Below, piece after piece: positions 1 to 34,129 of a stretch of DNA of 64,000 nucleotides; position 1 is the first letter of the stretch, and every line of letters begins with the position of its first letter. Both the position numbers and the translations under genes were made by a program. Below the pieces are notes generated by a model, which saw nothing but the letters and a program-made list of their open reading frames with translations, made no database searches and was not told where the DNA came from. Source of the stretch: Tetradesmus obliquus (lineage: Eukaryota > Chlorophyta > Chlorophyceae > Sphaeropleales > Scenedesmaceae); assembly GCA_030272155.1 (NCBI GenBank), contig CP126198.1, positions 2,418,001-2,482,000 on the forward strand, given 5' to 3'.

Positions 1-312
1 CGTGCAGCTAGTGTGGCTGCACAGAGTTTGTTGAGTACTAGTATTCTACACAGTTTCCTGCAAACATCCTTCTTGTGTGATCAAGGCGAATTCTGGAGCT
101 CAAAATTACTAGCAGTTTGGAGCTGCTGCTGCTGGCAGGTGAGGCCCTGCTGTGCAGTTGGGATGCAAGCAAACCAAAGCAGCAGCACTGGCAGCTGTGC
201 CTTACTGTGCCTGCCACATACAGCAGGTTGCTATGCCAGCATGGCTGTCTGCTTGCAAGCTGTGTTGATTTGTTGCAAAATGCAGATGCTGCGTTTGTAC
301 CATGCCCAGCTG
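1..312. mobile_element. B element, right part (cut by window start)
   Basis: This is the right-hand part of the 721-bp B element. Its right terminal inverted repeat is at 294-312 (TTTGTACCATGCCCAGCTG). There is no credible coding sequence in it. Confidence 0.8.
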
Positions 313-554
313 AGACTGTAATTGCATGCCAGCCTTTGCTGCAGCAGTTCTTAGCCTGCACTGCATCCCTTCTGTTGCTGTTCCTGGACTTGGTGCCTGA
401 AGTGCACACCTACCTTTTTATGCTATGGCTGATGTGCTCCTGCTGCTGCTGGGTATGCAGCTGATTTTACTGCGGCAGTAGCACTGTTTGCAATCTATGA
501 TATCTGCCTGGGCAGGAGCAGCAGCAGCAGCAGACGACAGGAAACGTTACAGCT

Positions 555-1085
555 ATGTGTGCTTTGAATCACGGTGGCATGTGCTTTTCAACTGCAGTTG
601 TTGGTGGGCGTGACAGCAGCAGCATGTGCCAGCAGGTGCCTCACTGCTGCTACCTAATTTTTTTGCGAAGGCTTTCAGTACAGCGCTGTGTTCAACGTCG
701 TTTAATGTTCATTCCAAATTGTTTACAGGTGCTGCAGCAACGCGATCGAGCTGCAGTGCTCTGGACATCCGTGTTGACCCGTCAGGCTCACCTGCAACGT
801 GGGCTTGCGAGGGCCCTTCAGGATTGGTTTTCTGCCTCAACCAAAGGTACGTTGCATAATGTGTCGACGATGATGAGTTGGCAGCGTGGCAGCTGTGTGG
901 CTCGGAGCAGGCTTGTTTCAGGGCACCTTTCCGTCTTGAAGTTCTTCACCATACCGCAGTTTATTTCGGCTCGAGCCATGCTTAAATCAATCATCAAATA
1001 TAAAAGTTAATTTACCGCAAGGTTTCTTGCAGGCTCCGTGCATAAAGCTTGGCAGGCCAACAGTCGTCACAACTCACGCGAGTGA
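555..1085 (+). CDS. Candidate small companion gene of the A unit, copy 1
   Basis: A frame runs from ATG 555 to a clean donor (AAAG|GTACGT) at 846. It can join an acceptor (CTTGCAG|GC) at 1033 and stop at 1083-1085, giving about 114 residues. An alternative is that the first exon begins at 729, after a good acceptor (TTGTTTACAG). I do not recognise the protein. The block 729-846 has a diverged relative near 22840-22970 that is also open in the same frame and ends at an equivalent donor; this is the main reason to regard it as coding. It is rich in Arg, Gln and Leu with no visible catalytic motif. It could be an accessory transposon protein or a captured exon. Confidence 0.35.
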
Positions 1086-1559
1086 CAGCAGCAGGAGCCA
1101 TGTTCAAGAGCTACGAGCGTAGTTGAATTATGCCAGGAATTTTTCCGTTACATTCGGCAATTCAGCATGACTGCAAATGCCTGTATGTGAAATGGCCACC
1201 AAGTGCCTTGCTGCCTTGCAGCAGTTGTTTGAAGCAGGAACCACTCCTGACAAGTCTGAGCACCAAAGCACAACATCCACATGTAGTTTACTCATACCAT
1301 AAGCTTCTGAACATGCCATTTCGTTCCCACACTCGCTCTCAGGTGAACACCAGGAAGTAACCACCCTACAGCAGCATGGTGCCAGCACCTCCCAAGCCCC
1401 GGGCGGTGCGAACATGCAGGACGGCGACAAGCGCAGGTGCCCTCAAACAGGTGAGCTCAAGGGCTCTCTGAGTGACACCCTGTGCACTGCTGGCTAGCCA
1501 TCTTGCATGCAGCTGACAGCCACAATCCCTACATGCCATGCAGCAGCACAACAGCAGAC

Positions 1560-3763
1560 TCAGCGCTGGTCTTTCCTGGGGTAGTCGCCAGCAGTGCCGC
1601 GGCGCTGCTTCCCGTCTCGGCACACACAAAGACTCCTCTTGCGGCTGCGCACCATGTTCCACAAATCTGGCAGCTTCAATACATCAGCCATGACAGATGC
1701 AGCTGTGATCTTCATAAAGGTGTTGTACAGGCCGTGCTGCAGGTCTCGCGGCTTCACATCAGCACCACCCAGCTGGCAGCTGTTATACAAGTAGTTGCGG
1801 AAGGCTGCTTTGAGGCTGCCAAATGCATGTTCAATGGGCTTGTTGAAATCTGGGGAGTAGGGTGCAAAGTGCAGCAGTTGATCTTCATTGATGCCACCTG
1901 CAACCAACATCTGTAGGCCATCCTTCCCCAGGTGAACACTTGGGTTGTCAAAGATGTACAGCGGCGTAGTGCCGCGCTGCGCCTGCTGTTGGTTGGCTAT
2001 GTCTTTGATCTCCATCATGCAGTGAACAAACTCCAGCTGAGTCATGCTCTTGGCCTGCTGGGTTGGTTTGTCCTTCAACTGCAGGTGCAAGAATTGCCGG
2101 ATTGGCAGCGCGCAGCCTTGTTAGCAGCGCAGGAGCGCAACGCAGCGGTGTGGATGGATGCGATGGGACGCTTCTACATCAGGCTCAGTGCAGACAAGGT
2201 CAGATACATCACCAAGTCTATGAGGGGGCAGAGATTGTTCTGGGGCTTGACTGGCTGCTTGCCAGGTGTGCAGCACTTCAAGTTCTGCGCGCCGCGTGCA
2301 GTCGCCACAGCAGCAGCGCTTCAGTGCAAGATGTGTGCATGTGTGCTGGCTGATATGGTTGGCACATGCATGGGCTACATGCACACAAGCGAGGAGCAGC
2401 TGGTGTGCATGCTGTACTGGTTAGGCACCAGCAGCAGTATGTGTGCTCAGGTAGCAGTGGACTGGTGGGATGGGCGGATTGATTTCCTCCATGCACAGCA
2501 CAACATGCTGATTCAAGCTGATGGCTCATGTCATGACAAGGGTTATTACAGCAGCAGCAGGCAGCTGGTGCTGGAGCGCGACTTTGAGTTCTGCGCTGCA
2601 GCATATGACAACTGGCTGCAGCCAGGGGGCAGTGTGCTGCGCGTGAGCATGCGCGGATGTGACATGCACCAATCCTTGCACATTGGTTTCCAGCTTGCTG
2701 CTGCAGGTGGTGTCATTGTACTGTCACCAAGTTACTCTGCTGTTATGTTCACAGCAGAGGACGGGCAGCGCTGCAGCTTCACTACAGCACTAAAAAAAGC
2801 ACTGCGGGACTGTTACTACACAGTACAGCAGGGCTGGCATGTCTTTCAATGGCAGGCGCCTGCGCAGTAGCAGCGCACACTCACCATGTACGGTACATTG
2901 AGGTTGCCAACATGGTCCTTGTTGTCTGTTGTGCCGGTGACAAACTTGCAGTAGACGGGCCCGTGCACAGCGTTGACGGCGCAGACAAAGTGCAACTTGA
3001 CCGGCTCTGCGTCCTTGCCCTTGCGCATCCATTTGCATGGCAGCACAGCATGCACGTTTTCATCGTGTGCATCACAATAGACCTTGACGGAGCCGCCTGC
3101 CAGGTCTGACATCCAGAATTTGCACTCATCAATGAAATATATGCGCTGCAGCATGTCGGGGTCACTTTGGTACTTCTGCCACAGCGCCGCAGCTGCTGCC
3201 TTTCGCCTTTGTTTCTGTATCTTTGTCAAGTCCAGCTTCACATCTATTCTCCTGCGCACCAGGTCGGGGTCAGCCCATTTCATGTACTTCAGCAGTCTCT
3301 TGGGTGTGATGTTGTAGTCAGTGCACAGCTGGCGCAGTGTGTCATTTTCCTGACATGCGACTTCGATTGAAGTCCACCACACGTGCACATCAACCTTTCT
3401 CTTTGATTCTGCAGATGGGTAGGCCTTTACCACCTTGCCAGCCTTGAATATTGTGCTGGCATGGAAGGCGACAGCATGTGGGACATTTGAGGGCCTGCCG
3501 CCATGCTTGGGTGTAGCCACTGTGCCGTTTGCTGTGAAGTTCTTGTGATGAAGTTTGCAGAACAGGTTCAGGTCCCCGTGTACCTCCTTGGCGTAGTCAG
3601 GGTACTGCTCTCTGTAATAATATGCGGGCGTAAACTTTTCGTCAGCTGTGGTCAAAGCCATTATCACACACACCACCGCCGCCACCCTCATGGCCGTGGT
3701 GCTGCGGTTGCTCTTCCATCCTGAAGGGTGCTTGCGCACCATGGACAGCCCCCCTGCAGGCAT
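1560..3763 (-). CDS. Tc1/mariner/IS630-superfamily DDE transposase, copy 1
   Basis: Exon 1 is 3763-2885 (293 residues) and exon 2 is 2078-1560, giving a 465-residue product. The intron 2884-2079 begins GTGAGT, ends CTGCAG, and has a CTAAC branch-point candidate 43 nt before exon 2; the join is in phase 0. The N-terminal ~200 residues are basic and probably bind DNA. Catalytic residues are Asp212 (FIDECKFW), Asp337 (IFDNPSVH) and Glu376 (KPIEHAFGSLK), with the typical YSPDFN before the Glu. By my count 38 residues separate the second Asp and the Glu (DD38E-like spacing). The product would cut and rejoin transposon ends in the nucleus. The frame is intact and looks functional. The closest subfamily is not determined. 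Confidence 0.88.
2079..2884 (-). other. Transposase intron hosting an antisense ORF
   Basis: This 806-nt intron has donor GTGAGT at 2884-2879, acceptor CTGCAG ending at 2079 and a CTAAC branch-point candidate with its A at 2121. Of its length, 717 nt are the opposite-strand nuclease-like frame. That leaves 75 nt on the acceptor side and 14 nt on the donor side. The same intron recurs in the other four A units. Confidence 0.75.
2154..2870 (+). CDS. Intron-nested antisense nuclease-like protein (PD-(D/E)xK, Vsr/DUF559/EDxHD type), copy 1
   Basis: The open frame extends back to 1932, but the first ATG is 2154, giving 238 residues. The ATG-to-stop frame lies wholly inside the transposase intron 2079-2884, on the other strand. 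Residues ~110-165 read as the core of small PD-(D/E)xK nucleases: RIDF (Asp110), a hydrophobic strand ending in ADGSCHD (Asp123, His127), an RD (Arg142-Asp143) in a helix, and a closing VLRVS strand. A Glu pair (80-81) in the preceding helix could supply the Glu of an EDxHD-type site. Cysteines at 45, 58, 61 and 63 may bind zinc. The fold assignment is by pattern only. It may act as a homing or transposition accessory endonuclease, or be an unrelated protein. Confidence 0.55.
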   Translation: MDAMGRFYIRLSADKVRYITKSMRGQRLFWGLTGCLPGVQHFKFCAPRAVATAAALQCKMCACVLADMVGTCMGYMHTSEEQLVCMLYWLGTSSSMCAQVAVDWWDGRIDFLHAQHNMLIQADGSCHDKGYYSSSRQLVLERDFEFCAAAYDNWLQPGGSVLRVSMRGCDMHQSLHIGFQLAAAGGVIVLSPSYSAVMFTAEDGQRCSFTTALKKALRDCYYTVQQGWHVFQWQAPAQ

Positions 3764-3871
3764 GAATCCAAAACATATGGATATGTTAGCTGTGCTTCTA
3801 GCAGCAGTGTGAACAGAAGTAACTGGTCAGGTCAAACAACAGCCTGCGGCATCATGGAGTTTGACCGGTCT

Positions 3872-4592
3872 CAGCTGGGCATGGTACAAATGTAGCGAAC
3901 AAGTGGCCTACATATAAATGTCAAGCTTTCAACGACGAATCTAAATCAATTTGAGCTGTTAGCAGTGGCACAGTGTGCTGCAAGAAAAGTGCTAAAACAC
4001 GTTGCCCTGAAGTGCCCCGACTCGACTGTTACATATGTTAACTTGCGCTGTAGAGTGTTGCTGTGGGTGCTGCTGCCTGCAACATGTTTTGATGTGTAAT
4101 GTAATACTTCTGGGCTTCCCTTGCTGGCTGATCAGGCACTGCAGTTCTGGTGTGCCAAGTGCCCTGCCGCTGCTGTTGCGCTCTGCTGCTTGGCGCTGTG
4201 CGCTGCACATACAGTTTCAACTGTCATATCTGTGACATACTGCGCAACACCGCTTCAGGCCCACCGGCAGCTGCTGCGCGCGTGCAGCTAGTGTGGCTGC
4301 ACAGAGTTTGTTGAGTACTAGTATTCTACACAGTTTCCTGCAAACATCCTTCTTGTGTGATCAAGGCGAATTCTGGAGCTCAAAATTACTAGCAGTTTGG
4401 AGCTGCTGCTGCTGGCAGGTGAGGCCCTGCTGTGCAGTTGGGATGCAAGCAAACCAAAGCAGCAGCACTGGCAGCTGTGCCTTACTGTGCCTGCCACATA
4501 CAGCAGGTTGCTATGCCAGCATGGCTGTCTGCTTGCAAGCTGTGTTGATTTGTTGCAAAATGCAGATGCTGCGTTTGTACCATGCCCAGCTG
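3872..4592. mobile_element. B element, copy 2 (721 bp, 19-bp TIRs)
   Basis: It is bounded by perfect 19-bp inverted repeats, CAGCTGGGCATGGTACAAA at 3872-3890 and its complement at 4574-4592. The flanking GTCT/AGAC extends the symmetry to 23 bp. It has no convincing coding frame, so it looks like a non-autonomous (MITE-like) element. It is inserted about 110 bp upstream of the transposase start codon of the A unit to its left. I see no direct target-site duplication. Confidence 0.75.
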
Positions 4593-4834
4593 AGACTGTA
4601 ATTGCATGCCAGCCTTTGCTGCAGCAGTTCTTAGCCTGCACTGCATCCCTTCTGTTGCTGTTCCTGGACTTGGTGCCTGAAGTGCACACCTACCTTTTTA
4701 TGCTATGGCTGATGTGCTCCTGCTGCTGCTGGGTATGCAGCTGATTTTACTGCGGCAGTAGCACTGTTTGCAATCTATGATATCTGCCTGGGCAGGAGCA
4801 GCAGCAGCAGCAGACGACAGGAAACGTTACAGCT

Positions 4835-8151: not shown

Positions 8152-8872
8152 CAGCTGGGCATGGTACAAATGTAGCGAACAAGTGGCCTACATATAAATG
8201 TCAAGCTTTCAACGACGAATCTAAATCAATTTGAGCTGTTAGCAGTGGCACAGTGTGCTGCAAGAAAAGTGCTAAAACACGTTGCCCTGAAGTGCCCCGA
8301 CTCGGCTGTTACATATGTTAACTTGCGCTGTAGAGTGTTGCTGTGGGTGCTGCTGCCTGCAACATGTTTTGATGTGTATTGTAATTCTTCTGGGCTTCCC
8401 TTGCTGGCTGATCAGGCACTGCAGTTCTGGTGTGCCAAGTGCCCTGCCGCTGCTGTTGCGCTCTGCTGCTTGGCGCTGTGCGCTGCACATACAGTTTCAA
8501 CTGTCATATCTGTGACATACTGCGCAACACCGCTTCAGGCCCACCGGCAGCTGCTGCGCGCGTGCAGCTAGTGTGGCTGCACAGAGTTTGTTGAGTACTA
8601 GTATTCTACACAGTTTCCTGCAAACATCCTTCTTGTGTGATCAAGGCGAATTCTGGAGCTCAAAATTACTAGCAGTTTGGAGCTGCTGCTGCTGGCAGGT
8701 GAGGCCCTGCTGTGCAGTTGGGATGCAAGCAAACCAAAGCAGCAGCACTGGCAGCTGTGCCTTACTGTGCCTGCCACATACAGCAGGTTGCTATGCCAGC
8801 ATGGCTGTCTGCTTGCAAGCTGTGTTGATTTGTTGCAAAATGCAGATGCTGCGTTTGTACCATGCCCAGCTG
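8152..8872. mobile_element. B element, copy 3
   Basis: Terminal repeats at 8152-8170 and 8854-8872. It differs from copy 2 at a few bases, for example near 8305 and 8379-8387. Confidence 0.75.
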
Positions 8873-9114
8873 AGACTGTAATTGCATGCCAGCCTTTGCT
8901 GCAGCAGTTCTTAGCCTGCACTGCATCCCTTCTGTTGCTGTTCCTGGACTTGGTGCCTGAAGTGCACACCTACCTTTTTATGCTATGGCTGATGTGCTCC
9001 TGCTGCTGCTGGGTATGCAGCTGATTTTACTGCGGCAGTAGCACTGTTTGCAATCTATGATATCTGCCTGGGCAGGAGCAGCAGCAGCAGCAGACGACAG
9101 GAAACGTTACAGCT

Positions 9115-9645
9115 ATGTGTGCTTTGAATCACGGTGGCATGTGCTTTTCAACTGCAGTTGTTGGTGGGCGTGACAGCAGCAGCATGTGCCAGCAGGTGCC
9201 TCACTGCTGCTACCTAATTTTTTTGCGAAGGCTTTCAGTACAGCGCTGTGTTCAACGTCGTTTAATGTTCATTCCAAATTGTTTACAGGTGCTGCAGCAA
9301 CGCGATCGAGCTGCAGTGCTCTGGACATCCGTGTTGACCCGTCAGGCTCACCTGCAACGTGGGCTTGCGAGGGCCCTTCAGGATTGGTTTTCTGCCTCAA
9401 CCAAAGGTACGTTGCATAATGTGTCGACGATGATGAGTTGGCAGCGTGGCAGCTGTGTGGCTCGGAGCAGGCTTGTTTCAGGGCACCTTTCCGTCTTGAA
9501 GTTCTTCACCATACCGCAGTTTATTTCGGCTCGAGCCATGCTTAAATCAATCATCAAATATAAAAGTTAATTTACCGCAAGGTTTCTTGCAGGCTCCGTG
9601 CATAAAGCTTGGCAGGCCAACAGTCGTCACAACTCACGCGAGTGA
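9115..9645 (+). CDS. Candidate small companion gene, copy 3
   Basis: Same as 555-1085; exons 9115-9406 and 9593-9645. Confidence 0.35.
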
Positions 9646-10119
9646 CAGCAGCAGGAGCCATGTTCAAGAGCTACGAGCGTAGTTGAATTATGCCAGGAAT
9701 TTTTCCGTTACATTCGGCAATTCAGCATGACTGCAAATGCCTGTATGTGAAATGGCCACCAAGTGCCTTGCTGCCTTGCAGCAGTTGTTTGAAGCAGGAA
9801 CCACTCCTGACAAGTCTGAGCACCAAAGCACAACATCCACATGTAGTTTACTCATACCATAAGCTTCTGAACATGCCATTTCGTTCCCACACTCGCTCTC
9901 AGGTGAACACCAGGAAGTAACCACCCTACAGCAGCATGGTGCCAGCACCTCCCAAGCCCCGGGCGGTGCGAACATGCAGGACGGCGACAAGCGCAGGTGC
10001 CCTCAAACAGGTGAGCTCAAGGGCTCTCTGAGTGACACCCTGTGCACTGCTGGCTAGCCATCTTGCATGCAGCTGACAGCCACAATCCCTACATGCCATG
10101 CAGCAGCACAACAGCAGAC

Positions 10120-12323
10120 TCAGCGCTGGTCTTTCCTGGGGTAGTCGCCAGCAGTGCCGCGGCGCTGCTTCCCGTCTCGGCACACACAAAGACTCCTCTT
10201 GCGGCTGCGCACCATGTTCCACAAATCTGGCAGCTTCAATACATCAGCCATGACAGATGCAGCTGTGATCTTCATAAAGGTGTTGTACAGGCCGTGCTGC
10301 AGGTCTCGCGGCTTCACATCAGCACCACCCAGCTGGCAGCTGTTATACAAGTAGTTGCGGAAGGCTGCTTTGAGGCTGCCAAATGCATGTTCAATGGGCT
10401 TGTTGAAATCTGGGGAGTAGGGTGCAAAGTGCAGCAGTTGATCTTCATTGATGCCACCTGCAACCAACATCTGTAGGCCATCCTTCCCCAGGTGAACACT
10501 TGGGTTGTCAAAGATGTACAGCGGCGTAGTGCCGCGCTGCGCCTGCTGTTGGTTGGCTATGTCTTTGATCTCCATCATGCAGTGAACAAACTCCAGCTGA
10601 GTCATGCTCTTGGCCTGCTGGGTTGGTTTGTCCTTCAACTGCAGGTGCAAGAATTGCCGGATTGGCAGCGCGCAGCCTTGTTAGCAGCGCAGGAGCGCAA
10701 CGCAGCGGTGTGGATGGATGCGATGGGACGCTTCTACATCAGGCTCAGTGCAGACAAGGTCAGATACATCACCAAGTCTATGAGGGGGCAGAGATTGTTC
10801 TGGGGCTTGACTGGCTGCTTGCCAGGTGTGCAGCACTTCAAGTTCTGCGCGCCGCGTGCAGTCGCCACAGCAGCAGCGCTTCAGTGCAAGATGTGTGCAT
10901 GTGTGCTGGCTGATATGGTTGGCACATGCATGGGCTACATGCACACAAGCGAGGAGCAGCTGGTGTGCATGCTGTACTGGTTAGGCACCAGCAGCAGTAT
11001 GTGTGCTCAGGTAGCAGTGGACTGGTGGGATGGGCGGATTGATTTCCTCCATGCACAGCACAACATGCTGATTCAAGCTGATGGCTCATGTCATGACAAG
11101 GGTTATTACAGCAGCAGCAGGCAGCTGGTGCTGGAGCGCGACTTTGAGTTCTGCGCTGCAGCATATGACAACTGGCTGCAGCCAGGGGGCAGTGTGCTGC
11201 GCGTGAGCATGCGCGGATGTGACATGCACCAATCCTTGCACATTGGTTTCCAGCTTGCTGCTGCAGGTGGTGTCATTGTACTGTCACCAAGTTACTCTGC
11301 TGTTATGTTCACAGCAGAGGACGGGCAGCGCTGCAGCTTCACTACAGCACTAAAAAAAGCACTGCGGGACTGTTACTACACAGTACAGCAGGGCTGGCAT
11401 GTCTTTCAATGGCAGGCGCCTGCGCAGTAGCAGCGCACACTCACCATGTACGGTACATTGAGGTTGCCAACATGGTCCTTGTTGTCTGTTGTGCCGGTGA
11501 CAAACTTGCAGTAGACGGGCCCGTGCACAGCGTTGACGGCGCAGACAAAGTGCAACTTGACCGGCTCTGCGTCCTTGCCCTTGCGCATCCATTTGCATGG
11601 CAGCACAGCATGCACGTTTTCATCGTGTGCATCACAATAGACCTTGACGGAGCCGCCTGCCAGGTCTGACATCCAGAATTTGCACTCATCAATGAAATAT
11701 ATGCGCTGCAGCATGTCGGGGTCACTTTGGTACTTCTGCCACAGCGCCGCAGCTGCTGCCTTTCGCCTTTGTTTCTGTATCTTTGTCAAGTCCAGCTTCA
11801 CATCTATTCTCCTGCGCACCAGGTCGGGGTCAGCCCATTTCATGTACTTCAGCAGTCTCTTGGGTGTGATGTTGTAGTCAGTGCACAGCTGGCGCAGTGT
11901 GTCATTTTCCTGACATGCGACTTCGATTGAAGTCCACCACACGTGCACATCAACCTTTCTCTTTGATTCTGCAGATGGGTAGGCCTTTACCACCTTGCCA
12001 GCCTTGAATATTGTGCTGGCATGGAAGGCGACAGCATGTGGGACATTTGAGGGCCTGCCGCCATGCTTGGGTGTAGCCACTGTGCCGTTTGCTGTGAAGT
12101 TCTTGTGATGAAGTTTGCAGAACAGGTTCAGGTCCCCGTGTACCTCCTTGGCGTAGTCAGGGTACTGCTCTCTGTAATAATATGCGGGCGTAAACTTTTC
12201 GTCAGCTGTGGTCAAAGCCATTATCACACACACCACCGCCGCCACCCTCATGGCCGTGGTGCTGCGGTTGCTCTTCCATCCTGAAGGGTGCTTGCGCACC
12301 ATGGACAGCCCCCCTGCAGGCAT
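10120..12323 (-). CDS. DDE transposase, copy 3
   Basis: Exons 12323-11445 and 10638-10120. Intact and identical to copy 1. This is the only copy in the array whose upstream region is not interrupted by B. Confidence 0.88.
10714..11430 (+). CDS. Intron-nested antisense nuclease-like protein, copy 3
   Basis: Identical to 2154-2870, nested in intron 10639-11444. Confidence 0.55.
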   Translation: MDAMGRFYIRLSADKVRYITKSMRGQRLFWGLTGCLPGVQHFKFCAPRAVATAAALQCKMCACVLADMVGTCMGYMHTSEEQLVCMLYWLGTSSSMCAQVAVDWWDGRIDFLHAQHNMLIQADGSCHDKGYYSSSRQLVLERDFEFCAAAYDNWLQPGGSVLRVSMRGCDMHQSLHIGFQLAAAGGVIVLSPSYSAVMFTAEDGQRCSFTTALKKALRDCYYTVQQGWHVFQWQAPAQ

Positions 12324-12419
12324 GAATCCAAAACATATGGATATGTTAGCTGTGCTTCTAGCAGCAGTGTGAACAGAAGTAACTGGTCAGGTCAAACAAC
12401 AGCCTGCGGCATCATGGAG

Positions 12420-12450
12420 TTTGACCGGTCTCAGAGACTGTAATTGCATG
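12420..12450. other. A-A junction without B (empty-site-like)
   Basis: Here the sequence reads GGTCTCAG|AGACTG. At the filled sites the same flanks enclose B (GGTCT-CAGCTGGG...CCCAGCTG-AGACTG). Relative to a simple GGTCT/AGACTG join, three bases (CAG, the terminal bases of B) remain. That fits either an excision footprint or an original empty site. Confidence 0.8.
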
Positions 12451-12676
12451 CCAGCCTTTGCTGCAGCAGTTCTTAGCCTGCACTGCATCCCTTCTGTTGC
12501 TGTTCCTGGACTTGGTGCCTGAAGTGCACACCTACCTTTTTATGCTATGGCTGATGTGCTCCTGCTGCTGCTGGGTATGCAGCTGATTTTACTGCGGCAG
12601 TAGCACTGTTTGCAATCTATGATATCTGCCTGGGCAGGAGCAGCAGCAGCAGCAGACGACAGGAAACGTTACAGCT

Positions 12677-13207
12677 ATGTGTGCTTTGAATCACGGTGGC
12701 ATGTGCTTTTCAACTGCAGTTGTTGGTGGGCGTGACAGCAGCAGCATGTGCCAGCAGGTGCCTCACTGCTGCTACCTAATTTTTTTGCGAAGGCTTTCAG
12801 TACAGCGCTGTGTTCAACGTCGTTTAATGTTCATTCCAAATTGTTTACAGGTGCTGCAGCAACGCGATCGAGCTGCAGTGCTCTGGACATCCGTGTTGAC
12901 CCGTCAGGCTCACCTGCAACGTGGGCTTGCGAGGGCCCTTCAGGATTGGTTTTCTGCCTCAACCAAAGGTACGTTGCATAATGTGTCGACGATGATGAGT
13001 TGGCAGCGTGGCAGCTGTGTGGCTCGGAGCAGGCTTGTTTCAGGGCACCTTTCCGTCTTGAAGTTCTTCACCATACCGCAGTTTATTTCGGCTCGAGCCA
13101 TGCTTAAATCAATCATCAAATATAAAAGTTAATTTACCGCAAGGTTTCTTGCAGGCTCCGTGCATAAAGCTTGGCAGGCCAACAGTCGTCACAACTCACG
13201 CGAGTGA
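12677..13207 (+). CDS. Candidate small companion gene, copy 4
   Basis: Same as 555-1085; exons 12677-12968 and 13155-13207. Confidence 0.35.
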
Positions 13208-13681
13208 CAGCAGCAGGAGCCATGTTCAAGAGCTACGAGCGTAGTTGAATTATGCCAGGAATTTTTCCGTTACATTCGGCAATTCAGCATGACTGCAAAT
13301 GCCTGTATGTGAAATGGCCACCAAGTGCCTTGCTGCCTTGCAGCAGTTGTTTGAAGCAGGAACCACTCCTGACAAGTCTGAGCACCAAAGCACAACATCC
13401 ACATGTAGTTTACTCATACCATAAGCTTCTGAACATGCCATTTCGTTCCCACACTCGCTCTCAGGTGAACACCAGGAAGTAACCACCCTACAGCAGCATG
13501 GTGCCAGCACCTCCCAAGCCCCGGGCGGTGCGAACATGCAGGACGGCGACAAGCGCAGGTGCCCTCAAACAGGTGAGCTCAAGGGCTCTCTGAGTGACAC
13601 CCTGTGCACTGCTGGCTAGCCATCTTGCATGCAGCTGACAGCCACAATCCCTACATGCCATGCAGCAGCACAACAGCAGAC

Positions 13682-15885
13682 TCAGCGCTGGTCTTTCCTG
13701 GGGTAGTCGCCAGCAGTGCCGCGGCGCTGCTTCCCGTCTCGGCACACACAAAGACTCCTCTTGCGGCTGCGCACCATGTTCCACAAATCTGGCAGCTTCA
13801 ATACATCAGCCATGACAGATGCAGCTGTGATCTTCATAAAGGTGTTGTACAGGCCGTGCTGCAGGTCTCGCGGCTTCACATCAGCACCACCCAGCTGGCA
13901 GCTGTTATACAAGTAGTTGCGGAAGGCTGCTTTGAGGCTGCCAAATGCATGTTCAATGGGCTTGTTGAAATCTGGGGAGTAGGGTGCAAAGTGCAGCAGT
14001 TGATCTTCATTGATGCCACCTGCAACCAACATCTGTAGGCCATCCTTCCCCAGGTGAACACTTGGGTTGTCAAAGATGTACAGCGGCGTAGTGCCGCGCT
14101 GCGCCTGCTGTTGGTTGGCTATGTCTTTGATCTCCATCATGCAGTGAACAAACTCCAGCTGAGTCATGCTCTTGGCCTGCTGGGTTGGTTTGTCCTTCAA
14201 CTGCAGGTGCAAGAATTGCCGGATTGGCAGCGCGCAGCCTTGTTAGCAGCGCAGGAGCGCAACGCAGCGGTGTGGATGGATGCGATGGGACGCTTCTACA
14301 TCAGGCTCAGTGCAGACAAGGTCAGATACATCACCAAGTCTATGAGGGGGCAGAGATTGTTCTGGGGCTTGACTGGCTGCTTGCCAGGTGTGCAGCACTT
14401 CAAGTTCTGCGCGCCGCGTGCAGTCGCCACAGCAGCAGCGCTTCAGTGCAAGATGTGTGCATGTGTGCTGGCTGATATGGTTGGCACATGCATGGGCTAC
14501 ATGCACACAAGCGAGGAGCAGCTGGTGTGCATGCTGTACTGGTTAGGCACCAGCAGCAGTATGTGTGCTCAGGTAGCAGTGGACTGGTGGGATGGGCGGA
14601 TTGATTTCCTCCATGCACAGCACAACATGCTGATTCAAGCTGATGGCTCATGTCATGACAAGGGTTATTACAGCAGCAGCAGGCAGCTGGTGCTGGAGCG
14701 CGACTTTGAGTTCTGCGCTGCAGCATATGACAACTGGCTGCAGCCAGGGGGCAGTGTGCTGCGCGTGAGCATGCGCGGATGTGACATGCACCAATCCTTG
14801 CACATTGGTTTCCAGCTTGCTGCTGCAGGTGGTGTCATTGTACTGTCACCAAGTTACTCTGCTGTTATGTTCACAGCAGAGGACGGGCAGCGCTGCAGCT
14901 TCACTACAGCACTAAAAAAAGCACTGCGGGACTGTTACTACACAGTACAGCAGGGCTGGCATGTCTTTCAATGGCAGGCGCCTGCGCAGTAGCAGCGCAC
15001 ACTCACCATGTACGGTACATTGAGGTTGCCAACATGGTCCTTGTTGTCTGTTGTGCCGGTGACAAACTTGCAGTAGACGGGCCCGTGCACAGCGTTGACG
15101 GCGCAGACAAAGTGCAACTTGACCGGCTCTGCGTCCTTGCCCTTGCGCATCCATTTGCATGGCAGCACAGCATGCACGTTTTCATCGTGTGCATCACAAT
15201 AGACCTTGACGGAGCCGCCTGCCAGGTCTGACATCCAGAATTTGCACTCATCAATGAAATATATGCGCTGCAGCATGTCGGGGTCACTTTGGTACTTCTG
15301 CCACAGCGCCGCAGCTGCTGCCTTTCGCCTTTGTTTCTGTATCTTTGTCAAGTCCAGCTTCACATCTATTCTCCTGCGCACCAGGTCGGGGTCAGCCCAT
15401 TTCATGTACTTCAGCAGTCTCTTGGGTGTGATGTTGTAGTCAGTGCACAGCTGGCGCAGTGTGTCATTTTCCTGACATGCGACTTCGATTGAAGTCCACC
15501 ACACGTGCACATCAACCTTTCTCTTTGATTCTGCAGATGGGTAGGCCTTTACCACCTTGCCAGCCTTGAATATTGTGCTGGCATGGAAGGCGACAGCATG
15601 TGGGACATTTGAGGGCCTGCCGCCATGCTTGGGTGTAGCCACTGTGCCGTTTGCTGTGAAGTTCTTGTGATGAAGTTTGCAGAACAGGTTCAGGTCCCCG
15701 TGTACCTCCTTGGCGTAGTCAGGGTACTGCTCTCTGTAATAATATGCGGGCGTAAACTTTTCGTCAGCTGTGGTCAAAGCCATTATCACACACACCACCG
15801 CCGCCACCCTCATGGCCGTGGTGCTGCGGTTGCTCTTCCATCCTGAAGGGTGCTTGCGCACCATGGACAGCCCCCCTGCAGGCAT
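13682..15885 (-). CDS. DDE transposase, copy 4
   Basis: Exons 15885-15007 and 14200-13682. Intact and identical to copy 1. Confidence 0.88.
14276..14992 (+). CDS. Intron-nested antisense nuclease-like protein, copy 4
   Basis: Identical to 2154-2870, nested in intron 14201-15006. Confidence 0.55.
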   Translation: MDAMGRFYIRLSADKVRYITKSMRGQRLFWGLTGCLPGVQHFKFCAPRAVATAAALQCKMCACVLADMVGTCMGYMHTSEEQLVCMLYWLGTSSSMCAQVAVDWWDGRIDFLHAQHNMLIQADGSCHDKGYYSSSRQLVLERDFEFCAAAYDNWLQPGGSVLRVSMRGCDMHQSLHIGFQLAAAGGVIVLSPSYSAVMFTAEDGQRCSFTTALKKALRDCYYTVQQGWHVFQWQAPAQ

Positions 15886-15993
15886 GAATCCAAAACATAT
15901 GGATATGTTAGCTGTGCTTCTAGCAGCAGTGTGAACAGAAGTAACTGGTCAGGTCAAACAACAGCCTGCGGCATCATGGAGTTTGACCGGTCT

Positions 15994-16714
15994 CAGCTGG
16001 GCATGGTACAAATGTAGCGAACAAGTGGCCTACATATAAATGTCAAGCTTTCAACGACGAATCTAAATCAATTTGAGCTGTTAGCAGTGGCACAGTGTGC
16101 TGCAAGAAAAGTGCTAAAACACGTTGCCCTGAAGTGCCCCGACTCGGCTGTTACATATGTTAACTTGCGCTGTAGAGTGTTGCTGTGGGTGCTGCTGCCT
16201 GCAACATGTTTTGATGTGTATTGTAATTCTTCTGGGCTTCCCTTGCTGGCTGATCAGGCACTGCAGTTCTGGTGTGCCAAGTGCCCTGCCGCTGCTGTTG
16301 CGCTCTGCTGCTTGGCGCTGTGCGCTGCACATACAGTTTCAACTGTCATATCTGTGACATACTGCGCAACACCGCTTCAGGCCCACCGGCAGCTGCTGCG
16401 CGCGTGCAGCTAGTGTGGCTGCACAGAGTTTGTTGAGTACTAGTATTCTACACAGTTTCCTGCAAACATCCTTCTTGTGTGATCAAGGCGAATTCTGGAG
16501 CTCAAAATTACTAGCAGTTTGGAGCTGCTGCTGCTGGCAGGTGAGGCCCTGCTGTGCAGTTGGGATGCAAGCAAACCAAAGCAGCAGCACTGGCAGCTGT
16601 GCCTTACTGTGCCTGCCACATACAGCAGGTTGCTATGCCAGCATGGCTGTCTGCTTGCAAGCTGTGTTGATTTGTTGCAAAATGCAGATGCTGCGTTTGT
16701 ACCATGCCCAGCTG
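15994..16714. mobile_element. B element, copy 4
   Basis: Terminal repeats at 15994-16012 and 16696-16714. Same sequence as copy 3 by eye. Confidence 0.75.
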
Positions 16715-16956
16715 AGACTGTAATTGCATGCCAGCCTTTGCTGCAGCAGTTCTTAGCCTGCACTGCATCCCTTCTGTTGCTGTTCCTGGACTTGGTGCCT
16801 GAAGTGCACACCTACCTTTTTATGCTATGGCTGATGTGCTCCTGCTGCTGCTGGGTATGCAGCTGATTTTACTGCGGCAGTAGCACTGTTTGCAATCTAT
16901 GATATCTGCCTGGGCAGGAGCAGCAGCAGCAGCAGACGACAGGAAACGTTACAGCT

Positions 16957-17487
16957 ATGTGTGCTTTGAATCACGGTGGCATGTGCTTTTCAACTGCAGT
17001 TGTTGGTGGGCGTGACAGCAGCAGCATGTGCCAGCAGGTGCCTCACTGCTGCTACCTAATTTTTTTGCGAAGGCTTTCAGTACAGCGCTGTGTTCAACGT
17101 CGTTTAATGTTCATTCCAAATTGTTTACAGGTGCTGCAGCAACGCGATCGAGCTGCAGTGCTCTGGACATCCGTGTTGACCCGTCAGGCTCACCTGCAAC
17201 GTGGGCTTGCGAGGGCCCTTCAGGATTGGTTTTCTGCCTCAACCAAAGGTACGTTGCATAATGTGTCGACGATGATGAGTTGGCAGCGTGGCAGCTGTGT
17301 GGCTCGGAGCAGGCTTGTTTCAGGGCACCTTTCCGTCTTGAAGTTCTTCACCATACCGCAGTTTATTTCGGCTCGAGCCATGCTTAAATCAATCATCAAA
17401 TATAAAAGTTAATTTACCGCAAGGTTTCTTGCAGGCTCCGTGCATAAAGCTTGGCAGGCCAACAGTCGTCACAACTCACGCGAGTGA
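16957..17487 (+). CDS. Candidate small companion gene, copy 5
   Basis: Same as 555-1085; exons 16957-17248 and 17435-17487. Confidence 0.35.
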
Positions 17488-17961
17488 CAGCAGCAGGAGC
17501 CATGTTCAAGAGCTACGAGCGTAGTTGAATTATGCCAGGAATTTTTCCGTTACATTCGGCAATTCAGCATGACTGCAAATGCCTGTATGTGAAATGGCCA
17601 CCAAGTGCCTTGCTGCCTTGCAGCAGTTGTTTGAAGCAGGAACCACTCCTGACAAGTCTGAGCACCAAAGCACAACATCCACATGTAGTTTACTCATACC
17701 ATAAGCTTCTGAACATGCCATTTCGTTCCCACACTCGCTCTCAGGTGAACACCAGGAAGTAACCACCCTACAGCAGCATGGTGCCAGCACCTCCCAAGCC
17801 CCGGGCGGTGCGAACATGCAGGACGGCGACAAGCGCAGGTGCCCTCAAACAGGTGAGCTCAAGGGCTCTCTGAGTGACACCCTGTGCACTGCTGGCTAGC
17901 CATCTTGCATGCAGCTGACAGCCACAATCCCTACATGCCATGCAGCAGCACAACAGCAGAC

Positions 17962-20165
17962 TCAGCGCTGGTCTTTCCTGGGGTAGTCGCCAGCAGTGCC
18001 GCGGCGCTGCTTCCCGTCTCGGCACACACAAAGACTCCTCTTGCGGCTGCGCACCATGTTCCACAAATCTGGCAGCTTCAATACATCAGCCATGACAGAT
18101 GCAGCTGTGATCTTCATAAAGGTGTTGTACAGGCCGTGCTGCAGGTCTCGCGGCTTCACATCAGCACCACCCAGCTGGCAGCTGTTATACAAGTAGTTGC
18201 GGAAGGCTGCTTTGAGGCTGCCAAATGCATGTTCAATGGGCTTGTTGAAATCTGGGGAGTAGGGTGCAAAGTGCAGCAGTTGATCTTCATTGATGCCACC
18301 TGCAACCAACATCTGTAGGCCATCCTTCCCCAGGTGAACACTTGGGTTGTCAAAGATGTACAGCGGCGTAGTGCCGCGCTGCGCCTGCTGTTGGTTGGCT
18401 ATGTCTTTGATCTCCATCATGCAGTGAACAAACTCCAGCTGAGTCATGCTCTTGGCCTGCTGGGTTGGTTTGTCCTTCAACTGCAGGTGCAAGAATTGCC
18501 GGATTGGCAGCGCGCAGCCTTGTTAGCAGCGCAGGAGCGCAACGCAGCGGTGTGGATGGATGCGATGGGACGCTTCTACATCAGGCTCAGTGCAGACAAG
18601 GTCAGATACATCACCAAGTCTATGAGGGGGCAGAGATTGTTCTGGGGCTTGACTGGCTGCTTGCCAGGTGTGCAGCACTTCAAGTTCTGCGCGCCGCGTG
18701 CAGTCGCCACAGCAGCAGCGCTTCAGTGCAAGATGTGTGCATGTGTGCTGGCTGATATGGTTGGCACATGCATGGGCTACATGCACACAAGCGAGGAGCA
18801 GCTGGTGTGCATGCTGTACTGGTTAGGCACCAGCAGCAGTATGTGTGCTCAGGTAGCAGTGGACTGGTGGGATGGGCGGATTGATTTCCTCCATGCACAG
18901 CACAACATGCTGATTCAAGCTGATGGCTCATGTCATGACAAGGGTTATTACAGCAGCAGCAGGCAGCTGGTGCTGGAGCGCGACTTTGAGTTCTGCGCTG
19001 CAGCATATGACAACTGGCTGCAGCCAGGGGGCAGTGTGCTGCGCGTGAGCATGCGCGGATGTGACATGCACCAATCCTTGCACATTGGTTTCCAGCTTGC
19101 TGCTGCAGGTGGTGTCATTGTACTGTCACCAAGTTACTCTGCTGTTATGTTCACAGCAGAGGACGGGCAGCGCTGCAGCTTCACTACAGCACTAAAAAAA
19201 GCACTGCGGGACTGTTACTACACAGTACAGCAGGGCTGGCATGTCTTTCAATGGCAGGCGCCTGCGCAGTAGCAGCGCACACTCACCATGTACGGTACAT
19301 TGAGGTTGCCAACATGGTCCTTGTTGTCTGTTGTGCCGGTGACAAACTTGCAGTAGACGGGCCCGTGCACAGCGTTGACGGCGCAGACAAAGTGCAACTT
19401 GACCGGCTCTGCGTCCTTGCCCTTGCGCATCCATTTGCATGGCAGCACAGCATGCACGTTTTCATCGTGTGCATCACAATAGACCTTGACGGAGCCGCCT
19501 GCCAGGTCTGACATCCAGAATTTGCACTCATCAATGAAATATATGCGCTGCAGCATGTCGGGGTCACTTTGGTACTTCTGCCACAGCGCCGCAGCTGCTG
19601 CCTTTCGCCTTTGTTTCTGTATCTTTGTCAAGTCCAGCTTCACATCTATTCTCCTGCGCACCAGGTCGGGGTCAGCCCATTTCATGTACTTCAGCAGTCT
19701 CTTGGGTGTGATGTTGTAGTCAGTGCACAGCTGGCGCAGTGTGTCATTTTCCTGACATGCGACTTCGATTGAAGTCCACCACACGTGCACATCAACCTTT
19801 CTCTTTGATTCTGCAGATGGGTAGGCCTTTACCACCTTGCCAGCCTTGAATATTGTGCTGGCATGGAAGGCGACAGCATGTGGGACATTTGAGGGCCTGC
19901 CGCCATGCTTGGGTGTAGCCACTGTGCCGTTTGCTGTGAAGTTCTTGTGATGAAGTTTGCAGAACAGGTTCAGGTCCCCGTGTACCTCCTTGGCGTAGTC
20001 AGGGTACTGCTCTCTGTAATAATATGCGGGCGTAAACTTTTCGTCAGCTGTGGTCAAAGCCATTATCACACACACCACCGCCGCCACCCTCATGGCCGTG
20101 GTGCTGCGGTTGCTCTTCCATCCTGAAGGGTGCTTGCGCACCATGGACAGCCCCCCTGCAGGCAT
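17962..20165 (-). CDS. DDE transposase, copy 5
   Basis: Exons 20165-19287 and 18480-17962. Intact and identical to copy 1. Confidence 0.88.
18556..19272 (+). CDS. Intron-nested antisense nuclease-like protein, copy 5
   Basis: Identical to 2154-2870, nested in intron 18481-19286. Confidence 0.55.
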   Translation: MDAMGRFYIRLSADKVRYITKSMRGQRLFWGLTGCLPGVQHFKFCAPRAVATAAALQCKMCACVLADMVGTCMGYMHTSEEQLVCMLYWLGTSSSMCAQVAVDWWDGRIDFLHAQHNMLIQADGSCHDKGYYSSSRQLVLERDFEFCAAAYDNWLQPGGSVLRVSMRGCDMHQSLHIGFQLAAAGGVIVLSPSYSAVMFTAEDGQRCSFTTALKKALRDCYYTVQQGWHVFQWQAPAQ

Positions 20166-20273
20166 GAATCCAAAACATATGGATATGTTAGCTGTGCTTC
20201 TAGCAGCAGTGTGAACAGAAGTAACTGGTCAGGTCAAACAACAGCCTGCGGCATCATGGAGTTTGACCGGTCT

Positions 20274-20994
20274 CAGCTGGGCATGGTACAAATGTAGCGA
20301 ACAAGTGGCCTACATATAAATGTCAAGCTTTCAACGACGAATCTAAATCAATTTGAGCTGTTAGCAGTGGCACAGTGTGCTGCAAGAAAAGTGCTAAAAC
20401 ACGTTGCCCTGAAGTGCCCCGACTCGGCTGTTACATATGTTAACTTGCGCTGTAGAGTGTTGCTGTGGGTGCTGCTGCCTGCAACATGTTTTGATGTGTA
20501 TTGTAATTCTTCTGGGCTTCCCTTGCTGGCTGATCAGGCACTGCAGTTCTGGTGTGCCAAGTGCCCTGCCGCTGCTGTTGCGCTCTGCTGCTTGGCGCTG
20601 TGCGCTGCACATACAGTTTCAACTGTCATATCTGTGACATACTGCGCAACACCGCTTCAGGCCCACCGGCAGCTGCTGCGCGCGTGCAGCTAGTGTGGCT
20701 GCACAGAGTTTGTTGAGTACTAGTATTCTACACAGTTTCCTGCAAACATCCTTCTTGTGTGATCAAGGCGAATTCTGGAGCTCAAAATTACTAGCAGTTT
20801 GGAGCTGCTGCTGCTGGCAGGTGAGGCCCTGCTGTGCAGTTGGGATGCAAGCAAACCAAAGCAGCAGCACTGGCAGCTGTGCCTTACTGTGCCTGCCACA
20901 TACAGCAGGTTGCTATGCCAGCATGGCTGTCTGCTTGCAAGCTGTGTTGATTTGTTGCAAAATGCAGATGCTGCGTTTGTACCATGCCCAGCTG
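20274..20994. mobile_element. B element, copy 5 (array edge)
   Basis: Left repeat at 20274-20292 and right repeat at 20976-20994. After its last base (CAGCTG) the sequence changes to unrelated DNA (TACGCGAC...) instead of the start of another A unit. Confidence 0.75.
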
Positions 20995-21694
20995 TACGCG
21001 ACACCACGCATCTCCCTCCGGAAGAGTTGAAATCTTCCTACGGGTACTAGTACCACTCCGTTCAAGTGACATGCTTGTGCAATCACCTCTATCAATGACG
21101 ATCGGCCTTTCTGCACTGTGTTCACTGCCGAGTGCCTAGTCGGAGCAAGCACACGCGGGGCGCCCATCGTGATCATTACGCGCTACAACGTCATCACGCC
21201 GCCAAGAAACAACTTTACGTCAACACAAAAACTGCAAACAAATGCCGCCGGCTAACACAATACACGCAGTTCCTGCTTGCAGTTGCGCATGCTGCACACG
21301 CGTGCTGTCGTAGCTGTATAGCATTGACAAACGCACACACAACATCACGACAAGCAGAGCGCCATCAGAGAATCCCTTACAGCAAAGCAATGGACAAGAT
21401 AGACTAGATTTATACAAGCAACGCATGACCGGCATGTTACCAACACCCAAAGCTGTTTTTCAAGATCTGGAGGGAGAGCAAAACATTGATCAACTGAGTT
21501 GTGACCACGCGCTGTAACCAATCTGCAACCTGCAACCTGCTTTGTTCAGCCAGCTTTGCTTGTGCTCAGAACTGTTGTTCCAACGACATTCGGTCAGCCT
21601 TAACGTGACCTACATATGCTCAAACAACCAGCTTATACCTGTCAAGCTGAAATAGGCATGCCCTGTTGGCAGTCCCTGCTGGTCTAGCCTCCAC

Positions 21695-22257: not shown

Positions 22258-23000
22258 GCCACCGGCGCATGTTGGACAGCACCCCTACAGGCATCAATGC
22301 AAAACCAGTGGAGGTGTTAGTTGTGCATGTCTCGGCAGCCCTGATAGATGTAGCATGTCAAGTCAGACACAAACAAGCAGCCGCCGGCATCACAAAGTTT
22401 GACCGGTTCCATGAAATGCAAAATGCATGGCCTACTTTGCAGCTGCAGAACTTTGCCAGCATTATAGCCCTGCTGCTGCTGTTTCTAGGTATTGTACATG
22501 AAGTGCATGCTCACCTTTTTATGTTGTAGTTGATCTGCTGCTGCTGCTGCAGGTTGTGCAGCTCAACGTATCACAGCAGTAGTGTTCTTTGCATGTTATC
22601 AATGCTTCCTGGACAGCAACACATGTACAGTTTGCAGCAGACAGCAGCATTTGATTAGTTACAGGGTGCTGCAAACTGCAGTGGCATTGAATTTCATTTG
22701 TTGTGTGCTGGTGTGCATTGCAGCAGCAGCATGCTCTTCCTGTACATCCTGGGCCTGCAATGCTGCTGCTCAAAATTCCGAAGCAATTGCACAGCGAGGC
22801 AACATATGTAAATGCAATTAAATATTGTTTGCAAACGTTTCAGGGTTGCTTGAAGCAGAATCGCGCCTGGGTTGTGTGCCTCAACGTTTTGGACACTTTG
22901 GCTCATCGGCTCACCTGGCGGACTCTCGCTCCCCAGTCGTGGCTAGCTGCTTCACAGAGAGGTACATTGCAACTGGTATTACGGTTGATAATTTAGCAGT
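22258..23000. mobile_element. Diverged A-like transposon remnant lacking B
   Basis: From 22258 the sequence aligns, with many substitutions, to the A-unit end (transposase N-terminal codons and leader, e.g. GTTTGACCGG at 22398). It continues straight into the A-unit start, then follows A as far as the donor of the small companion gene near 22972. No B lies between the two parts, matching junction 12434/12435. The companion exon (about 22844-22971) keeps an open frame of similar length and composition. The transposase body is absent. Confidence 0.65.
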
Positions 23001-31566: not shown

Positions 31567-34129
31567 CTGATGTGTGGCCGCTCTGCCAGTGCCACCACCT
31601 CAAGCAGGAAAGGCCCCGGGTGCGCAAACCTGCACCAAACCAAACGTCAAAATCAGCGCATTATACAAGCGCACAATATGTTCTGAGGAATGGTCGGCTT
31701 GGTGAGCTGCTTCCTAGCTGCACTGTTCTCAGTGGCTGGCGCTTGATGACGCACTGCGCTCCAACTAGCTGCTCCCAGAGTTCGCTTCCATTGCATGACC
31801 ACACATGCATGTGCTGGTGCCCTGACGTGTGCTGTGTGAGAGGCTTCGTACACATAGCACCTGCATGTTTAAACATTTTCACTGCACGTCTGTGTCCAGG
31901 CCACCCACAGGTATGCTGTGATTGGTTCGCAGCCACAGCACTCCACAAAACCTTTCACAAAACAAACTCACAGCCGCCTGCACACATTCCTCCTATGCGC
32001 CCGCACTGCACGCTGCACGCTCGCTTCTGACCGCTCACATGACGCTGAGGCTGTCCAGCAGCTCCGACTGGCCATAGTTGAACGAGCTGGACTGGCCATA
32101 GTCAGTGCTTCACATACGTTTGCACCCAACTGTAATACAACAGCAGGCTGTTCTTATGTTTTTCCGTTCCACGTTGCATCCACCGCTCACATGAGGCTGA
32201 GGCCGTCCAGCAGCTCCTGCCTGTTCCACGCAGTCACGCTGCGCACGCCATATGCCTCCGCCACCTTTGCAAAGTTGGGGTAGGGCCTGTGCGGGTGCTC
32301 CGGGTCCCCCAAGAATGTGAAAACGTCCAGTGAGTCGTACACCTCCTCCTCCAGCTGCTCCACCAGCTGCAGCCGGTTGTTGACGGTCACGATGACCTGC
32401 AAGTTTGACCAGGTTTGACCACAACGAGCAGATATGCGGTGAGTGAACATATAACATAGCGTATGATCTGTGCGGTCAAGGTCCCCCAGGAAAGTGAAAA
32501 CATTCAATGAATCATACACCTCCTCCTCCAGCTGCTCCACCAGCTGCAGCCGGTTGCTGACCGTCACGATGACCTGCATGTTTGACCAGGTTTGACCACA
32601 GCGGTCAGATATACAGTGGGTGAACACAAAACCGACGCATGATCTGTGCGGTCAAGGTTTCCGCCAGGAAGGTGAACACGTCCAGTGAATCATACACCTC
32701 CTCCTCCAGCTGCTCCACCAGCTGCAGCCGGTTGTTGACCGTCGCAATGACCTACAGCGTTTGACCAAGTTTGACCACAACGAGCAGATATACAGTGGTT
32801 GAACAAATGACAAAGGTATGATCTGTGTGAGTGCTCCGGGTCCCCCAGGAAAGTGAAGACATCCAGGGAGTCATACCCCTCCTCCTCCAGCTGCTCCACC
32901 ACTGGTGGTAGCTGAGCTGCAGCCGGTTGTTGACCATCACAATCACCTGCGCGTTTGACCGCGTTTGACCGGTGGTAGCGGGGGCCATCAGGGCAATGGG
33001 CAATCGTGGAGCAGGTTCAGTGTGTGGCATGTGTGGCCAGCCAACACACAACATGCTCAAAACCTGAGCTGCCCCAGATGGCTCAGAGCGCCAACATTTG
33101 AGATGCCCAAAATGGCAACTGTGCCAATTGGCAGTGAGTCATATGCCCACCTTGACATTGAGCTTGTAGACCTTGGCCATCATCAGCTCCTGGCTGGTCA
33201 TGGCAAAGCCACCACACAACGTCCCACACAACACCAACCCCACAGCCACCTGTCGGTTCAAATTAAATTGTAACACAGGACTACTTACATCCTTAAACTA
33301 CACAAAAATAACAATGCGCTGCAAAACCCACCTTGACGTTGAGCTTGTAGACCTTGGCCATCATCAGCTCCTGGCTGGTCATGGCAAAGCCTCCATCGCC
33401 GCAGATGGCCAGGCAGGTGGCCTGCGGGTTGGCCAGCGCGGCGCCGATGGCAGCAGGCAGCCCGCAGCCCATGCTGGCCAGCCCGCCCTGTGGCACAGAG
33501 GTGCAGGAAATGGCACAGCCAAAGGGTCGTAAGAGCGTCATAGTTGGGGTTGTGTCGAACCGCCTGATGCACGACACTTGCTTGCAGGACAAACATTAAA
33601 AAATACTTTTGTTTGTTGGCAGGGATGGCTGGCGGTGGCGACCTGTGCCTGCAACAACATCATGGTTAGCCAGGCAGGTGGCCTGAGGGTTGGCCAGCGC
33701 GGCGCCAATTGCAGCAGGCAGTCCACAGCCCATGCTGGCCAGTCCCCCTTGTATAAGGCAATTGTAACAGGGTCACAGGCAGGGTTGTGACAGAAGGTGT
33801 GATGCGGGCAGAGTGGTCTTCACACTTGCAGGACACGTGCCAGTGCTTGCAGAACACAGTATGGTGTGAAACATGGGGTGATTGGAGGTTTAGACAGCTC
33901 TGTATGGCCAGGCAGGTGACGGTTAGCCAGCGCAGCGCCGATGGCAGCCGGCAGCTCAAAGCCCAAGCTGGCCAGCCCGCCCTGTAGCCAAGATATGAGT
34001 TTTATATAGAAGCAGAACAAGAATCTAGTCGCAGCCAATATTGTGATCCGCATGCAGGTTGCCAAAAACAACAATGCCGCCGCCTCACCTCTACGAGCCA
34101 CTGGCGGGGCCTGTGCACGCGCATGCATG

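Follow-up and report, generated by a model that had tools for sequence, protein, structure and literature searches.

Composite-like DNA transposons termed KolobokP have been described from seven animal phyla (Kojima and Bao 2022, PMC9587614). They carry long terminal direct repeats (LTDRs) of about 450 or 660 bp that have short terminal inverted repeats (TIRs) of their own, and these repeats also occur as solo copies (PMC9587614). Multimers of the forms (LTDR-INT)n-LTDR and LTDR-(INT)n-LTDR, INT being the internal region, are found with outer target site duplications (TSDs) (PMC9587614). A DDE transposase is accompanied by a His-Me (I-PpoI-like) nuclease, which is encoded downstream of the transposase on the complementary strand (PMC9587614). 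The transposase is of the Kolobok type, element ends read 5'-RR..YY-3', TSDs are 3-5 bp long and 3-4 bp are lost at INT-INT junctions (PMC9587614). Here we describe an element from the green alga Tetradesmus obliquus whose layout resembles that of animal KolobokP but which seems to be built from unrelated parts. It lies in a 64,000-nucleotide stretch of DNA ('the window'; G000:C8:2418001-2482000), which is part of a genome of 104.7 Mb in 17 contigs. Pieces of chlorophyll a/b-binding genes occur in this genome (52 matches), as fits a green alga. One of them, when translated, matches chlorophyll a/b-binding chains with E 4e-70 (6kac, of Chlamydomonas), and the top match, 9vfj LHCI-2, has a higher score over two stretches.

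Judged from its sequence, the element is a composite-like DNA transposon with an R-I-R plan, in which direct repeats (R) enclose an internal region (I) that carries a DDE transposase gene on the minus strand and a nuclease frame on the plus strand. An earlier note on this DNA had read the plus-strand frame as a self-contained gene nested in a transposase intron, perhaps a selfish element homing into intronless copies. We lean, cautiously, towards a reading in which this open reading frame (ORF) forms exon 2 of a nuclease gene that belongs to the R-I-R transposon. Both genes would be spliced, the transposase would move R-I-R or R, and the nuclease would drive the growth of arrays.

Two genes with probably alternating exons

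The genome holds two large families of the element, W (the window's) and C4+C13, with about 73% DNA identity between them; copies on C10 and C14 were put in the latter by frame length and score. A third family is represented by one damaged copy, L071, on C6. The features of the two genes, in window coordinates, are as follows.

1376..1450, plus strand: N1, predicted nuclease exon 1, 25 codons, basic (ATG, open phase-0 reading frame and GTGAGC donor conserved across W, C4 and L071)
1451..2084, plus strand: predicted nuclease intron, enclosing all of transposase exon 2 (from the N1 and N2 borders)
1560..2078, minus strand: T2, transposase exon 2, DDE part with D, 38 residues, E (Pfam DDE_3, spacing)
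2079..2084, no strand assigned: palindrome CTGCAG, in a conserved 17-bp run; proposed 3' splice site for both genes
2079..2884, minus strand: transposase intron, enclosing all of nuclease exon 2 (GT..AG borders, conserved position)
2085..2870, plus strand: N2, nuclease exon 2, 261 codons and stop, with E103, D133 and D146-G-S-C-H150 (24 relatives, dN/dS, predicted fold, residues)
2885..3763, minus strand: T1, transposase exon 1, 293 codons from ATG (17 relatives; 69% identical in the C4 family)

The proposed transposase intron has its borders where the earlier note had drawn them, with GT at 2884/2883 (ATG/GTGAGTGTG, the slash marking the exon border), AG at 2080/2079 (CACCTGCAG/TTGAAG) and the two halves joined in phase 0. 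In 15 of 18 transposase relatives (protein sequences only, 27-99% identity), V-S or V-R directly follows the same residue, as an unspliced GTR AGN would read; two have V-G and one ends before the junction. This comparison supports a conserved GT-AG intron, whose position is kept down to about 30% transposase identity. T2 matches DDE_3 below the curated cut-off (24.4 bits versus 28.6; E about 2.2e-5 to 2.9e-5) and has a D-to-E spacing of 38. The match to the IS630 model is weak (E 2.7e-4), and one transposase relative matches HTH_32. Between W and the C4, C13 and L071 copies, the ratio of nonsynonymous to synonymous change (dN/dS) in T2 is 0.36-0.40.

On the plus strand, a frame at 1917-2870 is open for 317 codons, and its first ATG (2154) and stop (2868-2870) lie inside this intron, again as previously placed. 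Because the frame has 24 protein relatives (32-94% identity; sources jgi, lgn, ena and ncbi) and is open in two divergent families of the genome, C4 and L071, we take it to be more than a chance ORF. In W against C4, C13 and L071, N2 has dN/dS values of 0.59-0.61 with 0-1 stop-containing codons. The other five frames in the same comparisons give 0.66-1.21 and 5-17 stop-containing codons. Selective constraint on N2 is real but modest.

The predicted fold of the nuclease core is Vsr/EDxHD-like. Foldseek alone gave no significant match to the predicted structure, so this assignment rests on a VIA-align re-examination of Foldseek's candidate list, and the comparison covered only families on Foldseek's lists. 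Catalytic-type E, D and DGxxH residues are kept in most relatives, down to 31% identity, and the conserved N-terminal stretch (about 95 residues) is modelled poorly. Pfam, NCBIfam, PADLOC and PHROGs held no match to the ORF above cut-off (NCBIfam gave no nuclease), and a PDB sequence search returned chance-level matches or none. DUF559 was matched weakly, below its curated cut-off, by 12 of 21 family members (best E 0.0074); a DUF6239 match (2 of 21 members, best E 0.0049) was taken for chance. Searches for relatives in GTDB genomes and IMG/VR gave pattern matches, none of them confirmed. The ORF protein is a predicted nuclease of the Vsr/EDxHD type, in line with the Vsr/DUF559/EDxHD-like core recognized in the earlier note.

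Conservation among the nuclease relatives does not start at ATG 2154, which is itself unconserved, but with V-Q-x-L-x-x-W at 2085, the base after CTGCAG. Several relatives begin with V at the equivalent of 2085, as gene finders using GTG would have them do, and the first ATG of the C4 exon comes after the conserved N-terminal part. An unspliced in-frame ATG exists far upstream in C4 but not in W. The frame most likely has its start in a further exon, 5' of T2, which departs from the self-contained gene proposed before. Upstream of T2 on the plus strand, an ATG followed by 25 codons and GTGAGC is present in all three families (MVPAPPKPRAVRTCRTATSAGALKQ in W, MAPAHRRRRAVRTHRSPTSRGAVRK in C4, MAPSHRRRRTVRTHSSSTSRGAVRK in L071) and is in phase 0 with CTGCAG/GTG. 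Of 15 conserved ATG..GT stretches in 780 aligned bases (1291-2070), this is the single one whose donor reads GTRAG in every family. In L071 there is a 4-bp indel just before its ATG and none after. Exon N1 probably exists as predicted. A longer plus-strand gene with an exon at 729-846 was also considered and dropped, since the C4 family shows no conservation there.

If both introns are spliced, the coding exons follow each other in the order N1 (1376-1450, plus), T2 (2078-1560, minus), N2 (2085-2870, plus) and T1 (3763-2885, minus); they are separated by 109, 6 and 14 bp and nowhere overlap. The same interlocked order is seen in W, C4, C13 and L071. CTGCAG lies within a 17-bp run (2073-2089) that is identical in W, C4 and L071; only three such runs in the aligned region are longer. 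We infer that splicing occurs in both genes, which leaves coding exons that alternate between the two strands without overlap, and that one palindrome serves both 3' splice sites.

Repeats, insertions and arrays

The unit just described is one of many copies, which was not visible to the earlier note, nor was the start of the conserved ORF part at the acceptor (2085). A head-to-tail array fills window positions 1-20994 with a unit of 4280 bp and one step of 3562 bp, and its copies are 99.9-100% identical. The whole array runs from C8:2409032 to window 20994, holds seven nuclease copies and has TAC on both flanks. R (721 bp) bears CAGCTGGGCATGGTACAAA at its start and, inverted, at its end, and I measures 3559 bp; both lengths are those in the window.

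1..312: R, right part, truncated by the window start
313..3871: I, internal region, 3559 bp, first complete copy
3872..4592: R, 721-bp direct repeat with inverted ends CAGCTGGGCATGGTACAAA
4593..8151: I, copy 2, features offset by +4280
8152..8872: R
8873..12431: I, copy 3, offset +8560
12432..12434: CAG remnant at an I-I junction without R (TCT-CAG-AGA)
12435..15993: I, copy 4, offset +12122
15994..16714: R
16715..20273: I, copy 5, offset +16402
20274..20994: R, right array end
20995..20997: TSD TAC, with its partner left of the array, beyond the window

The ends of nine separate insertions in the genome were examined. In eight, R flanks I on both sides, with both R copies reversed relative to I in one of these (C5:6499457; L053, L054). 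The ninth, C16:4318780, is rearranged on the left, where a piece of the right end of I is found and R is reduced to about 150 bp. Eight of the nine have a 3-bp target duplication without mismatch, the exception being C8:1664600 (AGA versus ATA). Six further arrays each carry one perfect duplication for the array as a whole; for the 4.32-Mb array on C4, whose left R end bears substitutions, the duplication was judged by eye. Since an array as a whole carries one duplication, each (R-I)n-R array examined probably expanded after a single insertion. Three solo R copies, one of them internally deleted, have duplications of their own (GGC, AGA and TAT), so R is transposable by itself. These were chosen by eye among the first 100 of 175 places with R, with no nuclease or neighboring R listed nearby. 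Over single insertions, arrays and solo copies, the duplicated triplets are varied (for example TAC, ACC, GAT and CGG).

Some I copies abut without an intervening R. At all five such junctions examined, 3 bp (CAG or CTG) are left: TCT-CAG-AGA in the window array, and two sequences in one C4 array, where three positions have CCTT-CTG-AAGG and one has CCTT-CAG-AAGG. Two loci that cover a single position were counted once. Positions within one array may copy one event, so these losses of R represent at least three events. Staggered cuts of the Sleeping Beauty type leave 3 nucleotides of the element ends (PMC7827188), and the remnants would fit such an excision footprint. Besides the C5:6499457 copy with its reversed R repeats, single opposite-strand copies occur within arrays on C3, C5, C13 and C16, which suggests that I can flip between inverted R ends.

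Short motifs of T1, T2 and the nuclease each occur 138 + 131 = 269 times (up to 3 mismatches; reversed controls 0). By these equal totals, as distinct from copy-by-copy pairing, there is no sign of a transposase that lacks the nuclease. Many copies sit in arrays, with at least 51 nuclease copies over 212 kb on C13 (1053225-1265737) and at least 38 on C4. Nuclease copies in the C13 region are mostly regularly spaced, and the region could be satellite-like or heterochromatic.

The window also holds a relic of a related element (22265-22647, about 70% identical) with an I-I junction lacking R, where the right end of I (compare unit 3734-3869) is directly joined to the left end (compare 320-515). 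Further along, two similar minus-strand ORFs (52680-54218 and 57795-59249) contain Hint modules (Pfam PF01079, E 1e-20 and 2e-21), which are hedgehog/intein-like autoprocessing domains. Tandem repeats with periods of 121-371 bp lie at 32303-32901, 36564-37378 and 49930-50865, and some of their units resemble repeated coding or exon-intron blocks.

Possible roles of the nuclease

In the reading we favor, staggered cuts of the Tc1 type at the R ends would let the transposase move R-I-R as well as R by itself. The least certain steps concern the nuclease, which might cut DNA inside R or where R meets another R or I. The break, in or next to one R, could then be repaired from another R of a sister copy, adding R-I units, and the element would multiply in place without transposition, as has been proposed for KolobokP. 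Kojima and Bao named this process 'induced unequal crossover' (PMC9587614), and the array sizes seen here would fit it.

Several points weigh against this reading. Ordinary unequal crossover would equally yield arrays, and microhomology repair could mimic the 3-bp footprint at R-less junctions. In the close pair C4-L071, N2 has a dN/dS of 0.599 but one shifted frame has 0.485, and the C4-C13 comparison gives 1.13 for N2, on very few changes. The identity of N1 (0.60) is little above that of the non-coding part of the intron (0.54), and its dN/dS of 0.25-0.76 over 25 codons is equaled by some other frames.

The strongest alternative, which we consider unlikely though worth weighing, casts the nuclease as a transposition helper or end-processing factor that opens or trims ends or resolves joint molecules. 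Arrays would then arise by ordinary unequal crossover between R repeats. Tandem direct repeats recombine anyway, and the equal numbers of nuclease and transposase motifs suit such a helper. It leaves unexplained, however, why a nuclease recurs together with the R-I-R plan in the apparently unrelated superfamily of KolobokP.

RAP domains in algal OPR proteins offer a model for another possibility, that the Vsr-fold domain binds nucleic acid without cutting it and regulates the element's RNA. We find this improbable, as most relatives retain the E, D and DGxxH residues, and Pfam RAP is absent from the families matched by the 21 members.

The homing of a nested element, in which the nuclease would carry the intron into transposases that lack it, as the earlier note suggested, draws some support from I-Bth0305I (3r3p), a homing endonuclease and the nearest solved domain in one fold comparison. 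Yet none of the 16 matches to the joined transposase is an intronless relative, each being a frame of 256-352 residues. A genome search for the W-type intronless exon junction (up to 3 mismatches; the pattern was two letters off at one end and C4-type copies would escape it) found none. With equal motif totals, a deeply conserved intron position, GT-AG borders and a nuclease gene that probably extends outside the intron, homing is very hard to sustain. No Rfam match up to E 1 was found in 1-4600, and so nothing there points to a group I or II intron. The nuclease seems to belong to the transposon and not to have invaded it.

That the ORF is a fortuitous frame or decayed passenger, as modest dN/dS and stops in some copies might suggest, is the least credible reading and is largely contradicted by conservation: relatives keep the motifs, indels in N2 are only 6 and 9 bp, and the fold comparison points the same way.

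Comparison with known systems

The transposase resembles the IS630-Tc1-mariner group (including Zator and DD38E/Intruder) in its D-38-E spacing and in a catalytic part that may be of the DDE_3 type. The 3 bp left at excision sites recall the Tc1 group, as in Sleeping Beauty (PMC7827188). It differs in that a conserved intron splits the transposase, terminal direct repeats are present and the DDE_3 match stays below the curated cut-off; the TSD consists of 3 varied bp, not the TA of Tc1/mariner. Zator elements have a 3-bp target duplication, a length that fits the TSDs here.

Like the EDxHD/Vsr nucleases (I-Bth0305I, 3r3p; Vsr, 1cw0 and 1vsr; DUF559), the protein has the corresponding predicted fold and the E, D, DGxxH motif. 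Unlike them, it scores below curated profile cut-offs, is encoded in a eukaryotic DNA transposon and includes the poorly modelled N-terminal part. Homing endonuclease genes of group I and II introns differ from it in their setting, which here is a GT-AG intron in a region without an Rfam match.

Genes nested in opposite-strand introns, of which Drosophila antizyme and SmD3 are reportedly an example (cited in PMC4528330), share the placement of coding sequence within an intron of the other strand's gene. Here the nesting would be reciprocal, and both 3' splice sites would share one palindrome. For a transposon, exons interlocked in this way would amount to an extreme form of packing genes on both strands. 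If the arrangement is real, no coding sequence in one mature mRNA is complementary to coding sequence in the other, and the splicing of either gene might block or control the other. The earlier note had supposed the arrangement to be new, and no report of the element or of its nuclease/intron arrangement was found in open-licence PMC text.

KolobokP remains the closest counterpart. Terminal direct repeats with their own TIRs around an internal region, solo repeats, multimers with outer TSDs, and a DDE transposase and nuclease on complementary strands are common to both. In contrast, the ends here are CAG..CTG instead of 5'-RR..YY-3', the nuclease is of Vsr type by predicted fold and motif instead of a His-Me finger, and 3 bp are left, not 3-4 bp lost, at R-less I-I junctions. 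The reported KolobokP hosts are animals, and the passages of that paper examined for introns do not place its nuclease in one (PMC9587614). The transposase here has weak matches to DDE_3 and IS630 and may be unrelated to that of Kolobok. Because end letters, nuclease fold and reported hosts differ, we file the element under the composite-like kind but apart from KolobokP, with which it is probably convergent.

It is possible, and we suggest it tentatively, that a green algal lineage related to Tc1/IS630 acquired an EDxHD nuclease directed at the terminal repeats of the element itself, a second and independent origin of the composite transposon-plus-nuclease design. The element would both jump and multiply in place, building arrays that reach some 200 kb and, by an estimate from the 269 copies, add up to about 1 Mb, with reciprocally interdigitated genes and one palindrome as both 3' splice sites. 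The arrays suggest a route from DNA transposon to satellite-like DNA. If the plan (transposable terminal direct repeats, nuclease and tandem arrays) has recurred with a transposase and a nuclease that are apparently unrelated to those of KolobokP, this would speak for a functional tie between nuclease and repeats, and a second system makes the 'induced unequal crossover' proposed for KolobokP directly testable.
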